Notes: generated by a model from the sequence alone, not told the origin. 43,540 nt of DNA from Defluviicoccus sp. (GCA_028820505.1 JAPPIT010000167.1:1-43540); one strand, 5' to 3'. Shown: positions 20,013 to 40,798, counted from the first letter of the stretch. Numbers and translations: made by a program.

Positions 20013-20330
20013 GTCATGCCCGGAACAAGTCCATTGCTGTCCGGTTTAACTTCGGAACGGGCTCTGCGCCGACAGGCGAGACCGTCTCCGCCCCTCCGCT
20101 GTCACCCCGGACTTGATCCGGGGTCCAGGAAAACCGGGCGAGAGCGGCGCCTGTGGCCCTGGACCCCGGATCAAGTCCGGGGTGACAGCAGGGGACACGG
20201 ACGGGCGATGCGAGCGTCCTGCAATCCGAGCCTCGACCGGACCGATGCGCCGATAACCCGCCCACACCGACGCCTTGCACCCGGTCCACCCCACCGGAAC
20301 CGGACAACAGTGGACTCGTTCCGGGGCGAC
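20013..20330. repeat. Outer imperfect inverted repeat nesting the palindrome
   Basis: The stretch 20020-20044 (complement reads CCGGACAGCAATGGACTTG then TTCCGG) pairs with 20300-20324 (CCGGACAACAGTGGACTCG then TTCCGG), 22 of 25 bases, around the inner 92-bp palindrome. The 608-base gap 19913-20520 between clpS and the DUF1302 gene therefore holds nested repeats at 20013-20330 and no gene that I can support; its last 120 bases are AT-richer and probably contain the DUF1302 promoter. Confidence 0.55.
20098..20189. repeat. Dispersed palindrome with perfect 32-bp arms
   Basis: The arm at 20098-20129 (containing CACCCCGGACTTGATCCGGG) is repeated exactly in inverse orientation at 20158-20189, with 28 bases between. 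Each arm itself holds the short palindrome CCCCGGACTTGATCCGGGG. Palindromes built on GGACTTGATCC are numerous in many alphaproteobacterial genomes. The unit would form a very stable hairpin in RNA or DNA. Confidence 0.8.
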
Positions 20331-23910: not shown

Positions 23911-24020
23911 CGTCATGGTCGGCGAAGGCCGACCATCCACGAGTTTTTTCTTGCGACGGCGCGCGGTGGAAGAAAAACCGAAAACAAAACGTGGATGGTC
24001 GGCCTTCGCCGACCATGACG
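23911..24020. repeat. Palindromic intercistronic element, copy 1
   Basis: A 110-bp unit with perfect 31-bp arms (23911-23941 and 23990-24020). The arm begins CGTCATGGTCGGCGAAGGCC and is itself a hairpin: ATGGTCGGC and GCCGACCAT pair around GAAG. The core starts GAGTTTT and ends AAAACAAAAC. The copies at 28860 and 40701 have identical arms. It lies between the DUF1329 and Ycf48-like genes of one operon and supplies the only plausible start codons of the latter. Confidence 0.9.
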
Positions 24021-25000
24021 AGGCTGGAAGTTGCAAGAGCGGACCGTCGATAGCGGCGAACCGGATTGCCGCGCGCGCCGCCGGCCTCGCCCTCGCGGTC
24101 CTGCTCGCCCTCCTCGCGCCGGCGGGGGCGGGCGCCGAAGAGGCGGTGAGAGCGCCGCTCGCGATCCGGTCCCTGCTGCTCGACGGGGCCGCTTCCGGGT
24201 CGCGGCTGGTGGTGGTCGGCGAGCGCGGCCACATCCTCGTCTCCACCGACGGCGGCGCGCGCTGGACTCAGGCGAAGGTGCCCGTCCGCGCCCTGCTCAC
24301 CGCGGTCCACATGCACGACGAGCGCACCGGCTGGGCGGTCGGGCACGACGCGGCGATCCTGCGTACGCGCGACGGCGGCGAGACCTGGACGCTCTTGCAC
24401 CGGGCGCCGGAAGAGGAGCGCCCGCTGCTCGACGTCTGGTTCCGCGACGACAGGGCGGGCTTCGCGGTCGGGGCGTACGGCTATTTCCTCGCCACCCGGG
24501 ACGGCGGCGAGACCTGGACCTCGCGGACCGTGGGCGAGGACGATTTTCATCTGAACGCGCTCATCCCCGCGGCCGGGAAGCGCCGGCTCTACATCGCGGC
24601 CGAGGCGGGGGTCGTCTACCGCTCCGACGACGGCGGCGGGACCTGGCGCAAGCTGTCCCCGCCCTACGCCGGCTCCTGGTTCGGGGGGCTCGCGCTGGGC
24701 GAAGACGAGGTGCTGCTCGCCGGCTTGAGAGGGCATCTGTTCCGCTCCGGGGACGCCGGCGAGAGCTGGACGCGGGTGCCCACCGGGATCGCCGCGACGC
24801 TCACCGGCGCCGTCCGGCTGCCCTCCGGCCGGATCGCGATCGTCGGACTCGAAGGCGCCGTGCTGGTCAGCGCGGACGGCGGGCGGAGCGTGACCTCCCG
24901 CGGCCTGCCGTCGCGCGAGGGCGTCTCCGCCGCCCTGCCGCTCCCCGACGGCGGGGTTCTGCTGATCGGAGAGTTCGGCGTCCGCCGCCTCGCCGATTGA
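23915..25000 (+). CDS. Ycf48-like beta-propeller protein (BNR repeats), exported
   Basis: A seven-bladed-propeller-like protein of the Ycf48/HCF136 type with about six repeats of the form VGxxGxILxSxDGGxTW: GERGHILVSTDGGARW, GHDAAILRTRDGGETW, GAYGYFLATRDGGETW, AEAGVVYRSDDGGGTW, LRGHLFRSGDAGESW, LEGAVLVSADGG. A signal peptide (AARAAGLALAVLLALLAPAGAGAEE) precedes them, but it begins about 45 residues from the ATG. No ATG, GTG or TTG occurs between the palindromic element and the signal peptide: candidate starts ATG 23915, TTG 23951 and GTG 23966 all lie inside the element and none has a good ribosome site. From ATG the product is 361 residues. It ends 16 bases before the MMPL gene; such proteins accompany MMPL transporters in this cluster. 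Confidence 0.8.
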   Translation: MVGEGRPSTSFFLRRRAVEEKPKTKRGWSAFADHDEAGSCKSGPSIAANRIAARAAGLALAVLLALLAPAGAGAEEAVRAPLAIRSLLLDGAASGSRLVVVGERGHILVSTDGGARWTQAKVPVRALLTAVHMHDERTGWAVGHDAAILRTRDGGETWTLLHRAPEEERPLLDVWFRDDRAGFAVGAYGYFLATRDGGETWTSRTVGEDDFHLNALIPAAGKRRLYIAAEAGVVYRSDDGGGTWRKLSPPYAGSWFGGLALGEDEVLLAGLRGHLFRSGDAGESWTRVPTGIAATLTGAVRLPSGRIAIVGLEGAVLVSADGGRSVTSRGLPSREGVSAALPLPDGGVLLIGEFGVRRLAD

Positions 25001-28817: not shown

Positions 28818-29666
28818 GTGACCGGTTCGGTGGGAACCGTATCCGCCATTTCCCTGCCTCGTCATGGTCGGCGAAGGCCGACCATCCACGTTTTGTTTTT
28901 GTTGTTCCGTCGGCACGAGAAAACTCGTGGATGGTCGGCCTTCGCCGACCATGACGGGCTGAAAAAGGCCGTCTCCACGCTGCTCGCGGCGGCGCTTCTG
29001 GCCTTCCTTCCGGCCGCGGCGTGGAGCGCCGATGCCGGGCGCGGCAAGGCGCTCTACGGGCAGTGCAAGCGGTGCCACCAGGTCGGCGGCGGCGCGAAGC
29101 ACCGGATAGGTCCGCATCTCAACGATTTGTTCGGCCGCGCCGCGGGCTCGCTCGCCGATTACCGCTACTCCAGGGCGATGAAAGGCGCCGGGTCCGGCGG
29201 GCTGGTATGGACCGAAGCGACGCTGGACGCGTTCATCGCCGCGCCGCGCGCCGTGGTGGCGCGCTCGCGCATGAGCTTCGCGGGGCTCGAGAAGGCGGAG
29301 GAGAGGGCGGAACTGCTCGCCTGGCTGCGCGGCTTTTCCGGCGCCCGGTCCGATGTGCCGGCCGCGGAGCCCACCGTGACGCCGGAGGAGTACGGGCTCG
29401 ACCCGAAGCTGCTCGCCATCGAGGGCGATCCCGAATACGGCGCCTATCTGGCGGGCGAATGCACCACCTGTCACAAGCCGGGCGGGGGCGAGGAGGGCAT
29501 CCCGTCGATAACGGGATGGCCGCCCGAGGAGTTCGTGATAGCCTTGCACGCCTACAAGCGCGGCAAGCGGGTGCATCCGGCCATGCAGCTCGTCGCCGGG
29601 CGCCTGTCGGACGAGGAGATCGCCGCCCTGGCCGCGCATTTCCACCGGGCCGAGGACGGCCCGTGA
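28818..29666 (+). CDS. Two-haem c-type cytochrome (SoxE / FccA-like)
   Basis: An exported cytochrome with two haem sites: CKRCH (83-87 counted from the GTG at 28818) in a class I cytochrome c domain with probable Met ligand in RSRMSF (152), and CTTCH (215-219) in a second, FccA-like domain with probable Met in HPAMQLV. A signal peptide LKKAVSTLLAAALLAFLPAAAWSA starts at about residue 48. The region before it is the palindromic element; no ATG is available, only GTG 28818 or TTG codons at 28893, 28899 and 28902. The fccB gene follows after 17 bases, so the product is probably the electron acceptor of the flavoprotein in sulfide oxidation (the SoxE/SoxF or FccA/FccB pair). Confidence 0.85.
   Translation: MTGSVGTVSAISLPRHGRRRPTIHVLFLLFRRHEKTRGWSAFADHDGLKKAVSTLLAAALLAFLPAAAWSADAGRGKALYGQCKRCHQVGGGAKHRIGPHLNDLFGRAAGSLADYRYSRAMKGAGSGGLVWTEATLDAFIAAPRAVVARSRMSFAGLEKAEERAELLAWLRGFSGARSDVPAAEPTVTPEEYGLDPKLLAIEGDPEYGAYLAGECTTCHKPGGGEEGIPSITGWPPEEFVIALHAYKRGKRVHPAMQLVAGRLSDEEIAALAAHFHRAEDGP
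28860..28956. repeat. Palindromic intercistronic element, copy 2 (inverse orientation)
   Basis: A 97-bp unit with the same perfect 31-bp arms (28860-28890 and 28926-28956) as copies 1 and 3. Its core is reversed: on the complementary strand it begins GAGTTTT and ends AAAACAAAAC. It lies between soxZ and the two-haem cytochrome gene, and its right arm is read as RGWSAFADHD directly before the cytochrome signal peptide. Confidence 0.9.
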
Positions 29667-32006: not shown

Positions 32007-32124
32007 GGGCACCACGCTCCTTTTCGCCGCCGTTCCGCAGTTACCTGTGAAGCGCGAAATGCTTCATTCAATAATAGGAAACACTACTGACCATCATTTG
32101 TGGTGCAACTAAGTGAAAAGACCT

Positions 32125-33081
32125 TCAACTTTGGAAACGCAGGATCACTTCACTCTGCTGATCGCTCAATGGTGCTATCTCAGAAAGATTAACGTCGAAT
32201 CGAATGTTGTCGATCGGATCGGATACGTCAATTCGAGGGACTGGAATGTGCCGTGCGAGGTATAGAGCAAGCGCGCCGTCATCGGGGTAAGGTTGGAGCA
32301 TCAATTGGCTGCGATAGAGATCTGGCCCCCCTTTGGTAATACATTGCTGCAAAAAGGAGCCTCGAAGTTCCGGGTCCTCAATCTGAACCGCTATCGTATC
32401 CATCAAGGTGCCCACGGTCTGTCCACTTCGCACCTCGATAAGGCAAAGCGACGCAACAAAAGCTTCAAAGTCTCCCGCAGGTCTCAGTTGCTCAAGCGAG
32501 AATCGATGTTTTGGAGACGCCGAAAGAGTTGCCTTCACATCCATAACAAAGCTGTCAGTGACAAAATCGTACTTGGCGGTCTTTTGCGTGCTCCAGCATC
32601 GTACAGCAGTGGCAATGTCGTCTGATCGGTGTATAATGTATAACTCACCCCAAAGTCCTATCAGATCGCGCGTTGTGTCATTCACTCGACTAAAGAGAGC
32701 AGCAATTTCCTGAATATTATTAGCGATTGCTGTGTTATCGCATGGTATCCACTGATTGGAGAAGCGCTCCTCAAGAATAGTCAGAAAGAGACGCACGATA
32801 TCAGGATCATTCTCCTTCAGCCGAAGAAGCGAGTAACACCCACTTTGAGAATGACCGTCAGGAGTCTCGACAATGCAAATGCGAGAGAACAATGCGTCGA
32901 CAGCGCGCAAGATGATGTCGGGTCGCATGTCGTCTTCCCGGGAGGGCAGCATCAATGCTGGGTGGGCATTGTGATCTATCGATAGCCATACTGAGTGTCC
33001 TTCGGAAAGTGGTATGCCATAAAGGGTACCTGCCTCCTTCGGAACGGTGTGGCTGAGAGATGCGTACAAATCCGTGAGCAT
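32125..33081 (-). CDS. PD-(D/E)XK motif nuclease-like protein (DUF4420 type)
   Basis: A 318-residue protein with a PD-(D/E)XK-like core: a helix with Glu146 (LIGLWGELYII), Asp172 in KYDFVTD, and Asp181-x-Lys183 in SFVMDVKATLS. The conserved TRDLIGLWGELYII block and the later FEAFVASLCLIEV fit the DUF4420 family, which is encoded next to Z1 proteins. It is the likely restriction endonuclease of the system. It starts five bases after the Z1 stop and is the last gene of the operon. Low GC. Cleavage site unknown. Confidence 0.82.
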   Translation of the reverse strand: MLTDLYASLSHTVPKEAGTLYGIPLSEGHSVWLSIDHNAHPALMLPSREDDMRPDIILRAVDALFSRICIVETPDGHSQSGCYSLLRLKENDPDIVRLFLTILEERFSNQWIPCDNTAIANNIQEIAALFSRVNDTTRDLIGLWGELYIIHRSDDIATAVRCWSTQKTAKYDFVTDSFVMDVKATLSASPKHRFSLEQLRPAGDFEAFVASLCLIEVRSGQTVGTLMDTIAVQIEDPELRGSFLQQCITKGGPDLYRSQLMLQPYPDDGALALYLARHIPVPRIDVSDPIDNIRFDVNLSEIAPLSDQQSEVILRFQS

Positions 33082-33086
33082 TGAGC

Positions 33087-35288
33087 CTATCGCTCTATCC
33101 AGACACGCTCGATCAAATGATTAGGGACGTGGGTAGCAAGGATCGGTACGTCATTGATGGTGCGCTTCTTGTCTGCAGTACTGACATGGTATCGATGAAG
33201 TTGAAAGGTAACTGTTTCAGAAGAAACCAGAGCCCGAGCGCCCGGATAGTTTGTACGCGCGTTGGAGCCCTGAAAGAGCGCCCTGATCTTTGGAGGTTGC
33301 CCATCACTCAAGGTTCGCTTGGAATTAACGCCTGACCACGGTCCCGAAAGGGCGTAGAAACTACATGTCATGTCTGCGCTTTCTGCGACCATGCGTTCCA
33401 AACTAAGCATCAAAGCCTGGTGTGCGAGATTATCGTCTGGCCGGCTGTAAACAAACTGACCGATAAAAGGGATAATTTGGCTCAGCAGGATACGGTTGTT
33501 AAACGCCGGTACCCGTTGCTCCTCATTCCAGCCGTGCTCGGCGTAAGGAGAAAAGGGAAATTCATTCAGAATCTTGTCTGCAATTTCTCGATTCTCGGAA
33601 ACAATAAGCGTGTCCTCGAATGGAAAATCTGGTACAACCCATCCACTTTTCCCCTTCGACTGGTACATTTCCAGTAAAATGACAGACGACCGTGTTGGTT
33701 TCAACTGTTGGTCGAGGGGGTATGTTCTACGCCATTCCTTTAGCGTCTTACCACTGTTTAGATGCTCTCGGATCGATAGGCGAATGGCTTCCTCATGTCT
33801 CACATAATCCGTGAAGCCATCTATATTCTCGGAAGAAAGGTAAATTCGACATAGACCCAGATACGGCTTTTTGTAACCAAAGAATCGCGCCCGTTGCTGA
33901 ATATTGTCGGCGTTGCCGACGCCTGTAGAGCGTGGCATATAACTGACTGTCAATCCTTCCACGGTGAAGCCTCGATCCAGACCAATTCCGCCTACCAATA
34001 TCCAGCTATACTCTCCCTGCCAGTCGACAGGTGATATTCTGTTCTTTTCGCGGGTGTTCAATTCGACAACTGCGGTTTCCTCCATCGCTTCAAATAGAAT
34101 TGGCGCAATATTTTCAAAGGTTTGGTTCGTGTCGTACGTTTCCAGCAGATTTTCCGTTGATATTTTAAACTTGTTGAGAAGTTCGAAATGATCAGGATGT
34201 GTATTGTCTTGTAAAATATTCGACCACTGGTCTTTAATTTGCCGTGTCCAACGGGCGAACATCAGGTGTTCGTCTTTTGTGACAGCAGGATGGATCATCA
34301 TTGAGCGATTGTGCCCCGTCTTGAACTCATCCTCCAGCAGTCCTATTGCGACACCTACAAAGAAGTCTCTGAGTGCGTTTCGCAGACTCTCCGGTGGTTC
34401 GGTGGGAGGGTTGTTTTTGTCAGGTACATCAGAACTCGGAATGAGCTCGATGAATTTATCGCGTCCATCTACGAAGAATTCTTGACCGCCAACATAGTGG
34501 TTACCTGGTGTCAAGACACGACCGAAGTCGGGGGACAGGGCGTCGATGCGGCTAATCAGCAGCGGCGCCTGCGGCGTTGCGGTGTAGAGAATGTAGCTGT
34601 GGTGAGGAAACAAGGTGCGCAATTCCTTGATTCGCGTGTGCGTGGTGCTCTCCTCTTGTATTTTAGCTTTAGTGTTAATACCTGCTTGATCACCCTCGTC
34701 ATCAATGATCAGCGTCGGCACATCTGAAAAATCGGAATCTGACAGAAGCCTGGAGAGATTGTTTAGGTGACGATGCTGTTTCATCGACACGATTAGGATG
34801 GTGCGTGCGCGGGCGCTATTTCTACGCCAGCGAGCGAGTTCCGTATTTACACGTTCGGTTTCACTTTTTTGAAAGGAGTTTTGCTGGGTTGTGAATAAAT
34901 TCCATTCACGTGCCCCCGTAATATCGAGGTCGTTCTTCAGACGATCAAACGACTGTTCAACAAGATTGTTGGTCGTTCCCGCAAGCAAGATGACGAGTTG
35001 ATAGCCGTTATCCCGCGCCAGCGCCACTAGGCTCGTGAAAGACAAAGTCTTGCCACTCTGGACATAGCCAATAACCAAACCCGTGTTGGAAGTTCCTTCT
35101 TGATTCGGAGGAGCGCACTCGCTTAAGATTGACGCCGTCTCATGGATCAGCCGTTCTTTCTCGTCGTCGGCCAGAGCCTCGTTGGATCTCAAGAGTGCTG
35201 TGAACGCAGTTCCCTGGATTGGCGACCATTGACCGCCAGAATTTCCAGTCTGTGAAGCTACCTTGATGAGTTTTGGACCACTAGTCAT
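33087..35288 (-). CDS. Z1-domain superfamily II helicase/translocase-like ATPase
   Basis: A 733-residue protein. Walker A is GYVQSGKT (74-81, preceded by NTGLVI), Walker B is LIIDDEGDQ (194-201, DEGD in the place of DEAD), motif III-like YTATPQAPLL begins at 235, and NIQQRARFFGYK is a motif VI analogue with the Arg finger. The Z1 domain (Pfam Z1) covers the central and C-terminal part, with GGIGLDRGFTVEGLTVSYMPRSTGVGN as a hallmark. Z1 proteins were described in restriction-modification contexts with MORC-like GHKL ATPases. ATG 35288 overlaps the end of the GHKL gene by 8 bases. Predicted role: ATP-driven DNA remodelling or translocation before cleavage. Confidence 0.88.
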   Translation of the reverse strand: MTSGPKLIKVASQTGNSGGQWSPIQGTAFTALLRSNEALADDEKERLIHETASILSECAPPNQEGTSNTGLVIGYVQSGKTLSFTSLVALARDNGYQLVILLAGTTNNLVEQSFDRLKNDLDITGAREWNLFTTQQNSFQKSETERVNTELARWRRNSARARTILIVSMKQHRHLNNLSRLLSDSDFSDVPTLIIDDEGDQAGINTKAKIQEESTTHTRIKELRTLFPHHSYILYTATPQAPLLISRIDALSPDFGRVLTPGNHYVGGQEFFVDGRDKFIELIPSSDVPDKNNPPTEPPESLRNALRDFFVGVAIGLLEDEFKTGHNRSMMIHPAVTKDEHLMFARWTRQIKDQWSNILQDNTHPDHFELLNKFKISTENLLETYDTNQTFENIAPILFEAMEETAVVELNTREKNRISPVDWQGEYSWILVGGIGLDRGFTVEGLTVSYMPRSTGVGNADNIQQRARFFGYKKPYLGLCRIYLSSENIDGFTDYVRHEEAIRLSIREHLNSGKTLKEWRRTYPLDQQLKPTRSSVILLEMYQSKGKSGWVVPDFPFEDTLIVSENREIADKILNEFPFSPYAEHGWNEEQRVPAFNNRILLSQIIPFIGQFVYSRPDDNLAHQALMLSLERMVAESADMTCSFYALSGPWSGVNSKRTLSDGQPPKIRALFQGSNARTNYPGARALVSSETVTFQLHRYHVSTADKKRTINDVPILATHVPNHLIERVWIER

Positions 35289-36822
35289 CAATAATCCTCT
35301 TCGAAAGCTGGTTCCTTAGGATTTCGTTGGTAAATCGGCGTATCGCGGAGGGATGGCGATCCGCGAGCTCGCTCGCCGCGACTTCTGACAGTGCCATTGC
35401 GGCGGCCACATTCAGCAGCCCGGTGAATCCTTCAGAGTCTAGCGTCGGGTATTGCGCCATGAAGGGATGCATCATAGAGATACGAATCGTAATCTCGCGT
35501 GGCTCAGGATCGGTGATCAAGGGGCGATTGCAGATATCCAACCAGTTCGAAGGAGTGTCTGCATAAGACAACTCAATTGTAACAATCCAGTTTTCTCCAC
35601 GAAAACGCAATTCAAAGCGCACGTGTTCCAACTTGGTTTCGGGTAAGGTCGGCAAAGGCGCGCCAGTGTCAATCGGTTCTGCGCCTGGCGCGTCCGCAAA
35701 CACGGCCTGTTTGTTAAGCCTTCCTGCAATAGAGGACGCTGCCGCCTTCGCAACCCCTCGCGTATTCTTTGCATCTTTATTGCTACGATACTCGCGGACC
35801 TGTTGAAGAAGCGGAAAGTCTTTGCCGGATATTTGCCTGCGGAGTTGCTTTAAAAATGTGTCTTCGCTTTCCTCCCATTTGATGCCATCCTTAGTGTGAC
35901 TGACTTGAAAGCCGCGAAGGTGGATTTCGCCGAATACACGCAAATAAGCGTAGCTGTTTGAGGCTCCAAAGATATCCTTAGGCCGGTAGGTTTCATCAAA
36001 ACTGCCCATAATTAGGCGATTGCGCCGAAAAAGCGCAAGGCCCGCAAGACGGTTGCTGATGGTCTTGCGGATCGCAACAAATCCAGCCGCTGATTTACCT
36101 TCACCGAGATTGATATCTATATCCTTCTTCCACGTAACTGCGGGTCCTTCTGGATCACGATAGCTTGGTACGACAAGGATTTCCGGCTCGCTGTATGAAA
36201 GTGCATCACCATCAACTGTTATAGTGATAGTTCCGTCGCGGATAAATGCTCTATAGATGCTTGAGAGGTGTTCCTTGATTTTCTTTACTGTATTTCCTTT
36301 TGGAAAACGGCGAATGTTGTCAAGACGAATTTCCGTGTAGTGATTTTCCGTGGCAACAGGTATTGATACAACATGTAATTCTTCAATGCTGTCATTGACA
36401 ATTTGATCGATGTTAAATATTATCGTACGTTCGACATTTTCGCCCAACGCCGTTGTGCGGACACTCCAGTTCGGTGCGAACCAGCAGGCCGCACTCTTCA
36501 TCCCCATTCCGAACTCGGACAAACCCGAGGCATCAGGTGGGATTTCGGCGGGGCGGAAGGCTCGCTGATAGTCATGGTTCGCGATACCTGCTGCGTTGTC
36601 GTTGATCGTTATCGCGTTCTCAAACGCGAGAAAGTCGATATCAATGCGCAGACGGTAATCCGATCCGTCAGCCGTTCTTAGGGCGCGGCGCTGATCCAAG
36701 CTGCTTTGAATTGCGTTATCGACAAATTCCGCAAGAGCGTACCATGCCTTGTAGTTAAGGTGCGGCAGCACCGAGAGTACATTAACTCCCGGCCTGATAT
36801 TTACAGAGTTTAGTTGTTTCAT
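35281..36822 (-). CDS. MORC/MutL-like GHKL ATPase
   Basis: A 513-residue ATPase of the GHKL (gyrase, Hsp90, histidine kinase, MutL) fold. The N-box is ALAEFVDNAIQSS (Glu32, Asp35, Asn36), the G1 box INDNAAGI (73-80), the G2 box EFGMGMKSAA (103-112). A ribosomal-S5-like second domain contains LALFRRNRLIMG, where a Lys or Arg contacts the ATP gamma-phosphate. The last 170 residues have no family I can name. Such bacterial MORC-type proteins are encoded beside Z1 and restriction enzymes. The start overlaps the methyltransferase stop as TAATG, so translation is coupled. Low GC and codon use unlike the flanks. Confidence 0.85.
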   Translation of the reverse strand: MKQLNSVNIRPGVNVLSVLPHLNYKAWYALAEFVDNAIQSSLDQRRALRTADGSDYRLRIDIDFLAFENAITINDNAAGIANHDYQRAFRPAEIPPDASGLSEFGMGMKSAACWFAPNWSVRTTALGENVERTIIFNIDQIVNDSIEELHVVSIPVATENHYTEIRLDNIRRFPKGNTVKKIKEHLSSIYRAFIRDGTITITVDGDALSYSEPEILVVPSYRDPEGPAVTWKKDIDINLGEGKSAAGFVAIRKTISNRLAGLALFRRNRLIMGSFDETYRPKDIFGASNSYAYLRVFGEIHLRGFQVSHTKDGIKWEESEDTFLKQLRRQISGKDFPLLQQVREYRSNKDAKNTRGVAKAAASSIAGRLNKQAVFADAPGAEPIDTGAPLPTLPETKLEHVRFELRFRGENWIVTIELSYADTPSNWLDICNRPLITDPEPREITIRISMMHPFMAQYPTLDSEGFTGLLNVAAAMALSEVAASELADRHPSAIRRFTNEILRNQLSKRIIDD

Positions 36823-38126
36823 TACTCTGCTGCAATAGCTATGCTGAATAGGTCTTCTTTTTTGTTCCGATGGATCAACGCATCAACTATAACACGCGCG
36901 ACGTCGACATTTACTGCATTTCCGAGAGCCTTGTAAGCAACGGTCTTAGTGTCGGGAAGAAATTCGAGATCGCCCATGCTTTGCAGACGGCTACACTCGC
37001 GTGGTGTCATAAAGCGCTTCTCCCAACCGACAATCGGGACCTGGCTAGTTGTCATGGCGATGAGCGAAGGGGCCGTATCTGACTTCTTGACTCGAATTCC
37101 ACTTGCTCGAAACTGGATGAGGTGTTTCCAAATATCACGTTCCCCACCTTTGCAGTTCCATTCAAGTTTTTGAAAACTAGCTGGGAAGTCCTTGATACTG
37201 TCGATCCACGAGTCGATGAACACGCGATGGCGGGCATAGAAGGCGCGATTCTTCTCTATGAAATCGATCTTCCAGTCGGGAAAACAGTCGAGCTTGGTTC
37301 GCGCATAAGGCGGTAATGTGGCTTCGACCTCCCGGGGTGACAGGCCGTTGAGCGATGCTCCGAAGGCGCCTTTGAACCGACCTAACCCTTTGTAGCCTTG
37401 GGCATGTGGTGTGAGGCCATTGAGCGGATAGTCGGCGCCGAACTCCATTGCCCAGATCGGGAATGACGGTAGATGCTCATTCCAAGGATATGCTGCAACG
37501 AACCGCTGCCAAGTATCGATATAATGAAGATGATCTTCGTTAATCGCACGAGCTTCAGAGGGGTGCTCATCAAGAACAGAGCTTATCGAGGTTGCTGGCA
37601 GCGTCGCCGGGATGGGCCAACGGAAATTGTTCAGCCCTCGGCGATCTCCCACGATAAAAGCCCGTTCGCGCTTCTGGGGTATTCCAAACATGTGCGGCGA
37701 AAGCCGCTCGGATTTGATGTCATATCCTAGGTTGTGGAGTTGATCGCAAATGGTTGACCAGGTCTCCCCCATTTGATGGCGAATGAGATTGGGAACGTTC
37801 TCTATGACAAAGAAGCGCGGTTGCCTTAACCGCAAGATCTCGACGACATATTCAAAGAGGTCTCCCCAATGTGGGCACTTCAGCCCTTTCTGATCGCCTG
37901 CCTTAGAGAAGGGCTGACACGGAAAACCCGCACAAAGCACATCGTGTGAGGGGATGCGGGAAAGATCAGCGTCGCGGATGTCGCCTACTGGACGCAGCCC
38001 AAAATTTCGTTCGTAAAGGCTTGAAAGATGCGGGTCGAGTTCGGAGGCAAATACACATTCGAGGCCAAGCGATGCGAGCGCTTGATGGAATCCGCCCAAG
38101 CCTGCAAAGAGATCGATGAACTTCAT
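36822..38126 (-). CDS. DNA (cytosine-5)-methyltransferase
   Basis: A 434-residue type II-like C5-methyltransferase. Motif I KFIDLFAGLGGFHQAL (2-17), motif IV AGFPCQPFSKAG with the nucleophile Cys70, motif VI FVIENV (109-111), motif VIII FGIPQKRERAFIVG and the C-terminal motifs IX-X (PRECSRLQSMG, YKALGNAVNVDVARVI) are in the normal order, with a target-recognition region of about 190 residues between VIII and IX. It would modify the host genome and protect it from the PD-(D/E)XK nuclease. The ATG complementary to 38124-38126 begins directly at motif I; the open frame upstream to 38249 is not needed. Recognition sequence cannot be predicted. Confidence 0.95.
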   Translation of the reverse strand: MKFIDLFAGLGGFHQALASLGLECVFASELDPHLSSLYERNFGLRPVGDIRDADLSRIPSHDVLCAGFPCQPFSKAGDQKGLKCPHWGDLFEYVVEILRLRQPRFFVIENVPNLIRHQMGETWSTICDQLHNLGYDIKSERLSPHMFGIPQKRERAFIVGDRRGLNNFRWPIPATLPATSISSVLDEHPSEARAINEDHLHYIDTWQRFVAAYPWNEHLPSFPIWAMEFGADYPLNGLTPHAQGYKGLGRFKGAFGASLNGLSPREVEATLPPYARTKLDCFPDWKIDFIEKNRAFYARHRVFIDSWIDSIKDFPASFQKLEWNCKGGERDIWKHLIQFRASGIRVKKSDTAPSLIAMTTSQVPIVGWEKRFMTPRECSRLQSMGDLEFLPDTKTVAYKALGNAVNVDVARVIVDALIHRNKKEDLFSIAIAAE

Positions 38127-38245
38127 GTTGACGGTGTCTCGCGATCCAGCGACACTTGTGGACCGGAAGTGCCTGTCGGGTGCGCACTTTTCTTTGATCA
38201 CGTTATAGCGCGCCCATGTTGTGCCAGCATCGTGTACTGTACGGC

Positions 38246-38701
38246 TCACCGGGACGTGGCTCGGCGTTCAGGTAGCTTGAGATCAGTGTCGTCGCTACCG
38301 AGGAAGGCCGACACTCGAGCCTTGAGCGTCTTCGCATCTTTCGTCTCGCACTCCCAGATAGTCAGAATCGACCAATCTCGGCTTCGAAGTTCGTCTTGTG
38401 CAATGTGATCGCGTTCTACATTGCGTTCCAACTTCGGCAACCAATACTCGCGTCGAGATTTCGGCTTGCGTGCAAGGCGACAGCCTGCGTGCTGGTGCCA
38501 GAAGCAGCCATGTACAAAGATGATCTTGCGAAGTCTCGGAAACACGAGGTCGGGCGTGCCTGGCAGATCGCGACGATAGAGACGAAACCGGTAGCCAAGA
38601 CCATGAGCTAGACGACGGACAATCATCTCAGGTTTCGTATCCGTCTTGCGGATACGCCGCATGTGGTCGCTGCGGTGGTCTGGAATTGCATGAATCGTCA
38701 T
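38246..38701 (-). CDS. vsr: Very short patch repair endonuclease
   Basis: A 151-residue T:G mismatch endonuclease that repairs deaminated 5-methylcytosine. The active-site residues fall at the same numbers as in E. coli Vsr: Asp51 in LPGTPDLVF, His64 in FVHGCFWHQH, with Trp68 and zinc ligands in HAGC and WECE. DTKPEMIVRRLAHGLGYRFRLY is the family N-terminus. The ATG at 38701 precedes MTIHAIPDHR; a later ATG at 38662 is possible. It is first in the defence operon, 119 bases upstream of the methyltransferase that creates the lesion it repairs. Confidence 0.93.
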   Translation of the reverse strand: MTIHAIPDHRSDHMRRIRKTDTKPEMIVRRLAHGLGYRFRLYRRDLPGTPDLVFPRLRKIIFVHGCFWHQHAGCRLARKPKSRREYWLPKLERNVERDHIAQDELRSRDWSILTIWECETKDAKTLKARVSAFLGSDDTDLKLPERRATSR

Positions 38702-38932
38702 CGTGTACAGCCTACAACGTGAACGACGCTTCGTCGAACTGAACGGCGAATCGGCCACGTTACCTTGCTGGCTCCGTACCGCTCCTGGAATTGACCAGTG
38801 TCTTGGTCGATTTCTCCGGCGAACCGCTGGTCTACACTGAGGCTCGACCTGTGCCCACGCCTTCCGTCGATCCGTGGCTCGATGTGGTACGAAATTTTTT
38901 CTCGCCGGAGCCACAAGGCGCGACCGAATACG
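38702..38932. other. Right boundary of the defence island, no gene identified
   Basis: Composition climbs back towards the GC-rich host sequence across this 231-base stretch. A plus-strand frame from TTG 38791 reads VLVDFSGEPLVYTEARPVP and continues in a plausible protein-like way to about 38915, but has no ribosome site and no match I can recall; it may be a remnant. The vsr promoter must lie here; I see no consensus hexamers. Confidence 0.35.
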
Positions 38933-40681
38933 CTACCCGCCCCCGTTCCGCATCGCCGCCCGGAGCGCCCCGGTCGCTTCCTCGTCGACCGCGCGGCCGC
39001 CGTCCGCCGCCACCACGCCGTATATTTCGCGCATGGTGTCGGCCGAGAGGATCCCGTCGCGGAAGTCCCTGAGCACCATGCCGGGCTCGCGCTCCAGCGG
39101 GTCGCCCCAGCCCCCGCCCCCGGGCGATTGCGTCACGAAGCGAACCGGCCCGGTCGATTCCAGCCCGAACTTGGGCGCCTTCCGCGTGTTTCCGTCGGCG
39201 AAGCGGAGATGCATGTGGCCGGGCGCCCCCGCGCCCCCGCCGTTCACCCCGTAGCCGGTCTCGTACTCCAGCCCCTCGCCCCGGAAGGAATGGGTCGCGT
39301 CGGTCAGGATCTCCACCTCGTAGTCGGCGCCGCTGCCGCCACGCCAGCGGCCCGGCCCGGCGGCGTCCGCGCGGAACTCCTGGCGGTGGAAGAGGACGGG
39401 GTAGAGCTGCTCGTAGACCTCGACGTTGGGCATGGTGAGCCCGCCCAGCGTGCAGACATGGCCGATCTGGTTGAACCCGTCGCGCCCGTCGACCGCGCCG
39501 GCGCCGGCCGCCGCCGCGCCGTGATAGAAGACGTAGCGGTTGCCGTTCGCTTCGCGCCCGACCGAGATGCCGAACACGTTCTTGGCCCAGCCCGCGCAGC
39601 CCCGCGCGGGGTCGGCCTGGGCGAGCGCCTTCCACACCGCGTGGATGATCTCGTGCGCGAAGAAGACGGTGCACATCGTCGTCGGCGCGCCCTCCTCGGC
39701 GTTGACGATGCTGCCCTCCGGCGCATGGATATCGACGCAGCGGAACGCGCCCTCGTTGTGCGGCAGGCTGGGGTCGAGGAATGAGGCGAGCGCGGTGTAG
39801 ACCGCCGAGTGCGTGTTGCCGAGCGACGAGTTCTTGAAGCCCCGGATCTGGTCGTCGGTGCCGGTGAAGTCGATGGCCAGCCGGTCGCCCTCGATCGTCG
39901 CCTTCACCCGGACGGTCACGTCGCGCAGCTCGAAGCAGTCGTTGTCCGAGCGGTCCTCGGCCTCGTAGACGCCGTCCGGCATCTTCGCGATCTCGGCGCG
40001 CACGCAGCGGTCGGCGTGGTCGAGCACGCCGGTGAAATAGTCGAGCGCGGTGCCCGGCCCGAGTTCGTCGGCGAGCGCGGCGACCCGCTCCATGCCGATC
40101 CGGGTCGAGCCCAGCATCGCCCGCAGATCCCCGTCGAGCAAATGCGGCGTCCGCGTATTCAGCATCAGCAGCTTCCAGAGGTCGTCCCGCATCGTCCCGG
40201 CCTCGACGAGGCGCAGCACCGGCAGGCGGATGCCCTCGTGGAACACTTCGGTCGCCGACGGGTTGTAGGCGCCCGCCGCGCCGCCGCCGATGTCGGACTG
40301 GTGCGCCCGGTTGCAGGTGAGCCCGACGAACGCCCCGCCGGCGAAGATCGGCCGCGCGATCACCCAGTCGGGCAGGTGGTTGCCGCCCGCCTGCCACGGG
40401 TCGTTGAGGAGGTAGACGTCGCCTTCCGCCATGACGTCGCCGAAGTCGCGCAGGATCGCGCGGACCCCGAACCCGCCGCTGCCGGTATGGATCGGGATTC
40501 CGTCGGCCTGGCTCACCACCTCGCCGTTCGGCCCGGCGATGAAGCAGGAGAAGTCGTGCGCCTGGCTGAAGATCGGGCTCCGCGCGGTGCGGACCATGAC
40601 CCAGCCCATCTGGTGCGAGATGTGGTCGAGCCGGTTCTGGGTCAGCGCGAGGATGACGGGGTCGAGGTTCGTTTGGGTCAT
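38933..40681 (-). CDS. hyuB: Hydantoinase B / N-methylhydantoinase B family subunit
   Basis: A 582-residue HyuB-family protein, beta subunit of ATP-dependent hydantoinase / 5-oxoprolinase-type or acetone/acetophenone carboxylase-type enzymes. Typical segments are LTQNRLDHISHQMGWVMVRTARSPIFSQAHDFSCFI, YLLNDPWQAGGNHLPDWVIARPIF, CNRAHQSDIGGGAAGAYNPSATEVFHEGIRLP, and SPGGGGWGDPLEREPGMVLRDFRDG near the end. ATG 40681 has AAGAGGTG as ribosome site, which lies just outside the palindromic element copy 3. Normal length, partner of hyuA upstream on the same strand. The exact amide or imide substrate is unknown. Confidence 0.95.
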   Translation of the reverse strand: MTQTNLDPVILALTQNRLDHISHQMGWVMVRTARSPIFSQAHDFSCFIAGPNGEVVSQADGIPIHTGSGGFGVRAILRDFGDVMAEGDVYLLNDPWQAGGNHLPDWVIARPIFAGGAFVGLTCNRAHQSDIGGGAAGAYNPSATEVFHEGIRLPVLRLVEAGTMRDDLWKLLMLNTRTPHLLDGDLRAMLGSTRIGMERVAALADELGPGTALDYFTGVLDHADRCVRAEIAKMPDGVYEAEDRSDNDCFELRDVTVRVKATIEGDRLAIDFTGTDDQIRGFKNSSLGNTHSAVYTALASFLDPSLPHNEGAFRCVDIHAPEGSIVNAEEGAPTTMCTVFFAHEIIHAVWKALAQADPARGCAGWAKNVFGISVGREANGNRYVFYHGAAAAGAGAVDGRDGFNQIGHVCTLGGLTMPNVEVYEQLYPVLFHRQEFRADAAGPGRWRGGSGADYEVEILTDATHSFRGEGLEYETGYGVNGGGAGAPGHMHLRFADGNTRKAPKFGLESTGPVRFVTQSPGGGGWGDPLEREPGMVLRDFRDGILSADTMREIYGVVAADGGRAVDEEATGALRAAMRNGGG

Positions 40682-40700: not shown

Positions 40701-40798
40701 CGTCATGGTCGGCGAAGGCCGACCATCCACGAGTTTTTCTTCGTCCATGGCAGACCAAAAAACAAAACGTGGATGGTCGGCCTTCGCCGACCATGACG
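40701..40798. repeat. Palindromic intercistronic element, copy 3
   Basis: A 98-bp unit with the same perfect 31-bp arms (40701-40731 and 40768-40798) as the copies at 23911 and 28860, core in the same orientation as copy 1 on the plus strand. It fills most of the 143-base gap between hyuA and hyuB. Here it is not part of a reading frame. Confidence 0.9.

Follow-up and report, generated by a model that had tools for sequence, protein, structure and literature searches.

What MORC proteins do in bacteria has been an open question since their operons were predicted in 2008, and a locus in Defluviicoccus sp. raises it in compact form. We analyzed a stretch of 43,540 nucleotides (GCA_028820505.1 JAPPIT010000167.1:1-43540), here called the window and numbered from its first letter, in which ORF (open reading frame) and Pfam searches delimit five complete genes, all on the minus strand at 32125-38701. 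They encode a Vsr endonuclease, a C5-cytosine DNA methyltransferase (here DCM), a MORC ATPase, an SF2 ATPase with a Pfam Z1 domain (here the Z1 protein) and a DUF4420 nuclease. Taking together their content, insertion as an island, homology, and conservation of catalytic residues and gene order, we consider the locus probably a horizontally acquired ATP-dependent restriction-modification system, a predicted defence against viruses, for which the restriction activity itself is what we infer. The genes and their domains are as follows.

38246..38701, minus strand: Vsr mismatch endonuclease, accessory (Pfam Vsr 2.9e-25; NCBIfam vsr 4.1e-41, above its cut-off)
36822..38126, minus strand: DCM (Pfam DNA_methylase 4.2e-66; TIGR00675 5.2e-63), read from an ATG, with a GTG at 38249 also open
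37035..37619, minus strand: predicted DCM target-recognition region, residues 211-405 counted from the GTG; its conservation parallels that of the catalytic core across phyla
35281..36822, minus strand: MORC ATPase with GHKL, S5 and system-specific C-terminal domains (HATPase_c_3 1.9e-12; S5 signature; structure matches)
35293..35655, minus strand: MORC C-terminal domain, residues ~390-510 (predicted local distance difference test, pLDDT, of ~67-91 in blocks over most of it; profile search)
33087..35288, minus strand: SF2 motor ATPase, the Z1 protein (Z1 2.4e-35; SF2 fold), read from an ATG, with the ORF opening at TTG 35291
33735..34388, minus strand: Pfam Z1 domain, modeled as the second RecA-like lobe, residues 302-519 in TTG numbering (fold match; motifs V and VI)
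32125..33081, minus strand: DUF4420 PD-(D/E)XK nuclease (Pfam 1.3e-20; conserved catalytic residues)

A first-pass annotation had described five intact genes on one strand at these positions and had named their families; the ORFs agree, and all five proteins score above the Pfam cut-offs. The couplings it listed are exact: DCM and MORC meet in TAATG at 36822, the MORC and Z1 genes overlap by 8 bases (35281-35288), and 5 bases (33082-33086) separate Z1 from DUF4420. The start of DCM is likely the ATG at 38126, because relatives mostly begin with MKFIDLF, which matches that position; the GTG at 38249 overlaps the Vsr stop, and the 41 residues that it would add are not conserved in relatives.

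Searching for the same gene set in other genomes had been proposed as a check on the annotation. When GTDB genomes were scanned with a MORC alignment, 268 relatives emerged, and we retrieved the 80 best. The order DCM-MORC-Z1-DUF4420 is kept in most of the 84 loci examined, which excludes chance. The order spans many phyla, being found in records titled Proteobacteria, Acidobacteria, Bacteroidetes, Nitrospirae, Chloroflexi, Verrucomicrobia, Planctomycetes, Poribacteria and others, and also on a plasmid of Rathayibacter (Actinomycetota). Neighbors were counted in the 61 loci having at least 1.5 kb on both sides: DCM adjoins MORC in 58, Z1 adjoins MORC in 60 and DUF4420 adjoins Z1 in 56, while a Vsr gene lies within 700 bp of the core in 11. 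We regard Vsr as accessory because it is nearby in just these 11 loci. The system is a core of four genes, DCM-MORC-Z1-DUF4420, with Vsr optional; the five genes that had been taken as one unit do adjoin here, but the unit that recurs is the smaller one. Related MORC genes occur in ~1.3-1.5% of the genomes sampled in the class and phylum.

The GHKL protein is, by motif and predicted fold, a true MORC and a relative of the human MORC proteins, a sharper identification than the GHKL assignment it had carried. The family is defined by the GHKL motifs, an S5 domain and the signature GhXhhpXXRhl (Iyer et al. 2008, PMC2292703). The window protein has GLALFRRNRLI at residues 261-271, which fits this MORC-specific signature, and the signature is present in 83 of 83 relatives, as against 2 of 200 shuffles of the window protein. 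The GHKL residues E32, D35, N36, D75, G79, G105, G107 and K109 are invariant in the same 83. Residues 10-346 of the AlphaFold model (mean pLDDT 84) match SMCHD1 (Z 22.9, 301 aligned, 3.7 Å) and MORC3 (Z 21.2, 287 aligned, 3.2 Å); the matches to MORC2, MORC3 and MORC4, at Z 20.5-21.2, stand slightly above those to Hsp90 (Z up to 19.6). It is the S5 motif, together with the fold shared with SMCHD1 and MORC2/3/4, that supports the assignment; a sequence search of the PDB gave only a weak match to HtpG.

Beyond the ATPase module lies a domain without a Pfam name. The last 170 residues of the GHKL protein had been noted as matching nothing familiar; an unmatched domain does exist there, but it extends over some 120 residues (~390-510). 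Its profile matches the Rathayibacter protein and other Z1-linked MORCs, and the domain is found wherever a full-length MORC adjoins Z1. The profile found no match in the MORC proteins of two loci, L030 and L134, both lacking Z1. The first matches in its N-terminal part at 4e-57 and has as neighbors, judged by eye, an apparent helicase and another methyltransferase; the second adjoins a related DCM, with neither Z1 nor DUF4420. This distribution suggests that the C-terminal domain works with Z1 and DUF4420.

The Z1 assignment of the first-pass annotation likewise gains precision, since the Pfam Z1 region of the window protein is, in the structure model (mean pLDDT 84.6), the second RecA-like lobe of an SF2 motor. 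Model residues 24-520 align with RIG-I, FANCM, Mfd, RecG and RadD at Z 17-19, all SF2 enzymes that track double-stranded nucleic acid (RNA or DNA), and the Z1 domain contains motif V (DRGFTVEGL) and motif VI (QQRARFFG). The motif residues are invariant in 82 of 82 relatives. The window protein has ADNIQQRARFFG, and its relatives have DTIQQR.RFFG, in agreement with the DThhQXuRhFG-like motif of Iyer et al. The Z1 profile matches an N.NgoAVII-like ORF of the gonococcal M-R-N operon at 1.6e-64, an ORF lying in an unannotated region of its record and identified from gene order and PMC4267653. PDB sequence searches with Z1 and with DUF4420 gave no relative worth reporting.

In the nuclease, 72 of 72 relatives retain E146, D172, D/E181, K183, H192 and Q198, agreeing with the E-D-ExK pattern of Iyer et al. 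A simple regular expression for this motif missed many relatives and was set aside; the alignment columns show the residues to be kept. The three residues earlier singled out as catalytic, Lys80 of Z1 (ATG numbering), Glu32 of the GHKL protein and Lys183 of the nuclease, are all invariant.

Recognition regions of restriction methyltransferases usually differ between systems. In the DCM family, identity in the recognition region is 39% where the core is 40-50% identical and 56% where the core is 60-70% identical, and motifs such as QFRASGIRVK persist in it across phyla. Because the region is conserved across phyla whereas such regions usually vary, it is a fair inference from the alignments that one or a few target sequences serve the whole family. 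Distances between the proteins of the system are congruent, with r of 0.62-0.79 against the recognition region. A methyltransferase of a methanobacterial virus (BK063679.1 14402-15538) is 37% identical to the window DCM over 96% of its length, recognition region included; a role in counter-defence is possible.

The genes lie on an island that contains them and nothing else.

32040..38952, no strand: inserted island of 6.9 kb, just the five genes (edges approximate, from alignment with congeners; G+C content ~50%, against ~70% outside)
32030..32039, plus strand: 10-bp direct repeat CCGTTCCGCA, left copy at the island edge (edge alignment)
38943..38952, plus strand: 10-bp direct repeat CCGTTCCGCA, right copy (edge alignment)

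The gene block has a G+C content of 49-56% and the neighboring genes outside it ~69-76%. The island is flanked by genes for a YeeE-like sulfur transporter and hydantoinase B, which are adjacent in two congeners, G003 (L124) and G002 (L123). The 10-bp repeat may be a target-site duplication or a short shared homology, and no integrase is among the five genes of the island. Because the surrounding genes are metabolic (flavocytochrome c sulfide dehydrogenase, sulfur transport, hydantoinase A and B), the island is a lone insertion, outside any larger defence island; its clean insertion among metabolic genes is consistent with a mobile defence cassette. Elsewhere, the window holds four near-perfect palindromes of 90-110 bp (20099-20189, 23911-24021, 28859-28968 and 40701-40798), with stems of ~30 bp and predicted RNA folds of -71 to -81 kcal/mol. 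Of the four, three form a single family; a relative of the first occurs in congener G002.

A second copy of the system, diverged from the first, lies in the window's genome on contig C94 (L008, 952-7560), with DCM, MORC, Z1, DUF4420 and a shortened Vsr, its MORC being 46% identical to that of the window. Downstream of this copy lies a convergent two-gene cassette (L008 7605-9621, minus strand) encoding a ParB-like protein of 359 aa and a second protein of 324 aa with no Pfam match; such a ParB-like convergent pair stands beside the operon in 12-14 related loci, and the window copy has none. The same genome has a third GHKL protein on contig C28 (L010, 3360-9011), together with a C5 methyltransferase fused to a helix-turn-helix and a Vsr, apparently a paraMORC-type restriction locus, and a further Vsr-DCM pair on contig C112 (L009). 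Among mobile elements, a plasmid of Hymenobacter carries a broken copy of the operon, and the phage records searched held no MORC relative. Nine viral contigs (L137-L145) have MORC relatives, and in most of them the core is complete or almost so; DUF4420 often ends at the contig boundary, and contig ends often coincide with the operon. There the operon is possibly cargo at prophage edges. A stretch of 12.3 kb is common to loci L036 (Enemella) and L037 (Roseovarius) at 99.2%; we set it aside as proof of transfer between phyla, contamination being possible.

How might the parts work together? In the sequence of events that we propose, DCM would mark host DNA by forming 5-methylcytosine at a single fixed sequence, or at very few. 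A MORC dimer would close as an ATP-dependent clamp around DNA that lacks the mark, at or near the DCM target sequence. The MORC C-terminal domain would couple MORC to the SF2 motor, which would move along double-stranded DNA, as proposed for CglI; complexes that stall or collide would activate the DUF4420 nuclease, and the DNA would be cut. Vsr, where present, would repair T:G mismatches arising from deamination of 5-methylcytosine. We hold ATP-dependent restriction with DCM as the self mark to be likely and translocation by the motor to be somewhat favored, while the odds that MORC is a clamp licensing cleavage seem to us even and the role of its C-terminal domain as a coupler is a tentative proposal. 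Bolder still, and in our estimate unlikely, is the idea that the methylation state of a fixed, near-universal target is read by MORC in place of a classical specificity subunit, and that MORC clamps the DNA and licenses a double-stranded-DNA motor and a nuclease. If such MORC-gated reading were true, a bacterial MORC would already perform methylation-dependent DNA entrapment like the eukaryotic MORCs, which silence methylated or foreign DNA. The compact operon, with a four-gene core and every checked active site intact, would make the question testable in Escherichia coli, and should phyla have the target in common, a single methylome would be enough to predict it in hundreds of species.

Several observations weigh against this reading. 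The sample of 80 loci comprises the best of 268 by MORC similarity, a choice that biases them toward uniform conservation. The parts of the system can separate, since five loci (L049, L058, L067, L074 and L110) keep DCM-MORC-Z1 without a recognized DUF4420 and two (L086 and L091) lack the usual DCM. In the comparison of distances, no domain or subunit co-varied distinctly with the DCM recognition region after correction. In L086 and L091, viewed as natural swaps, no domain looked replaced, a result that weighs neither for nor against. The association of the C-terminal domain with Z1 rests on just two negative cases. The gene content of the loci without DUF4420 or the usual DCM varies: a Vsr gene occupies the place of DUF4420 in L074, a tandem pair of other C5 methyltransferases lies downstream in L086, and L091 has an antisense DCM and Vsr.

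The two loci lacking the usual DCM would also suit the main rival explanation, an MZA-like defence in which the trigger for MORC, Z1 and DUF4420 is a phage structure or a state of the DNA instead of a sequence left unmethylated, with DCM added only for protection or regulation. MZA, cited as validated in PMC9523054, shares the Z1 and DUF4420 families, the NCBIfam profiles MzaC and MzaD match at 2.1e-35 and 0.0015, and the PADLOC profile for MzaB matches 15 of 55 MORC relatives (best 3.4e-7). The MzaC and MzaD matches nevertheless fall far under the Mza equivalog cut-offs (122 bits against 1500 for MzaC, 17.8 against 420 for MzaD), the five genes of the island include no AIPR, MzaA or sigma-factor gene, and DCM adjoins MORC in 58 of the 61 flanked loci; we judge this explanation improbable. 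A system decaying or inactive in this host, as the shortened Vsr of the second copy and the broken Hymenobacter operon might suggest, is less probable again, given that none of the five window genes is truncated, their active sites are conserved and the couplings are unbroken. The least probable alternative is a DNA repair or short-patch system, with deamination at methylated sites corrected by DCM and Vsr together with a helicase and an ATPase resembling MutL. In its favor, the locus includes a Vsr gene, MORC shares the GHKL and S5 ATPase architecture of MutL, and occasional recruitment for repair was suggested by Iyer et al. (PMC2292703), but of the 61 loci just 11 have Vsr close to the core, against 56 with DUF4420, repair needs no linked methyltransferase, and the distribution is horizontal and island-borne. 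A restriction-modification system remains our preferred reading.

Among known systems, MZA (MzaABCDE, Gao et al. 2020, via PMC9523054) resembles the window operon in its related GHKL, Z1 and PD-(D/E)XK proteins and differs in MzaA, described as a sigma factor, and, in related type II systems, an AIPR protein (PMC9523054); the low Mza scores given above mark the same distance. CglI and NgoAVII share with it a C5 methyltransferase, a homologous SF2-Z1 motor needed for cleavage and a separate nuclease subunit. In NgoAVII, ATP hydrolysis (~170/s) is required for cleavage (PMC4267653), and CglI needs it to cut, with translocation proposed (PMC5737866). Their nuclease is a site-binding PLD-B3 protein and they have no MORC, whereas the window operon has DUF4420 and MORC, and no PLD-B3 endonuclease gene is among the five of the island. 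The remark in the first-pass annotation that little biochemistry exists therefore holds for the MORC-containing form, for which we found no experimental paper in a literature covering few subscription papers, but not for the Z1 relative, N.NgoAVII/CglI being characterized (PMC4267653, PMC5737866), nor for MZA, which shares part of the families and is cited as a validated system in PMC9523054.

The operon type itself had already been predicted twice. Miller et al. 2022 (PMC9523054) predicted a defence system built around a core of Z1, PD-(D/E)XK and methyltransferase proteins, their type II being weakly similar to MZA; their type I shares with the window the Z1, PD-(D/E)XK and cytosine methyltransferase core and linked DNA repair endonucleases, and has six genes, the window lacking the ParB-like pair, if that pair was counted there. 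The prediction by Iyer, Abhiman and Aravind, to which the first-pass annotation pointed, is indeed in their 2008 paper (PMC2292703). Their third type of MORC operon combines a MORC or paraMORC with an SF2 helicase bearing the C-terminal DThhQXuRhFG motif, a novel E-D-ExK restriction endonuclease, a DNA cytosine methylase and Vsr, and the window operon has the DNA methylase and Vsr that they described as frequent. The window operon is a further case of this predicted kind, to which it adds the empty site, the counts of cohesion, the structural matches and a MORC C-terminal domain specific to this system.

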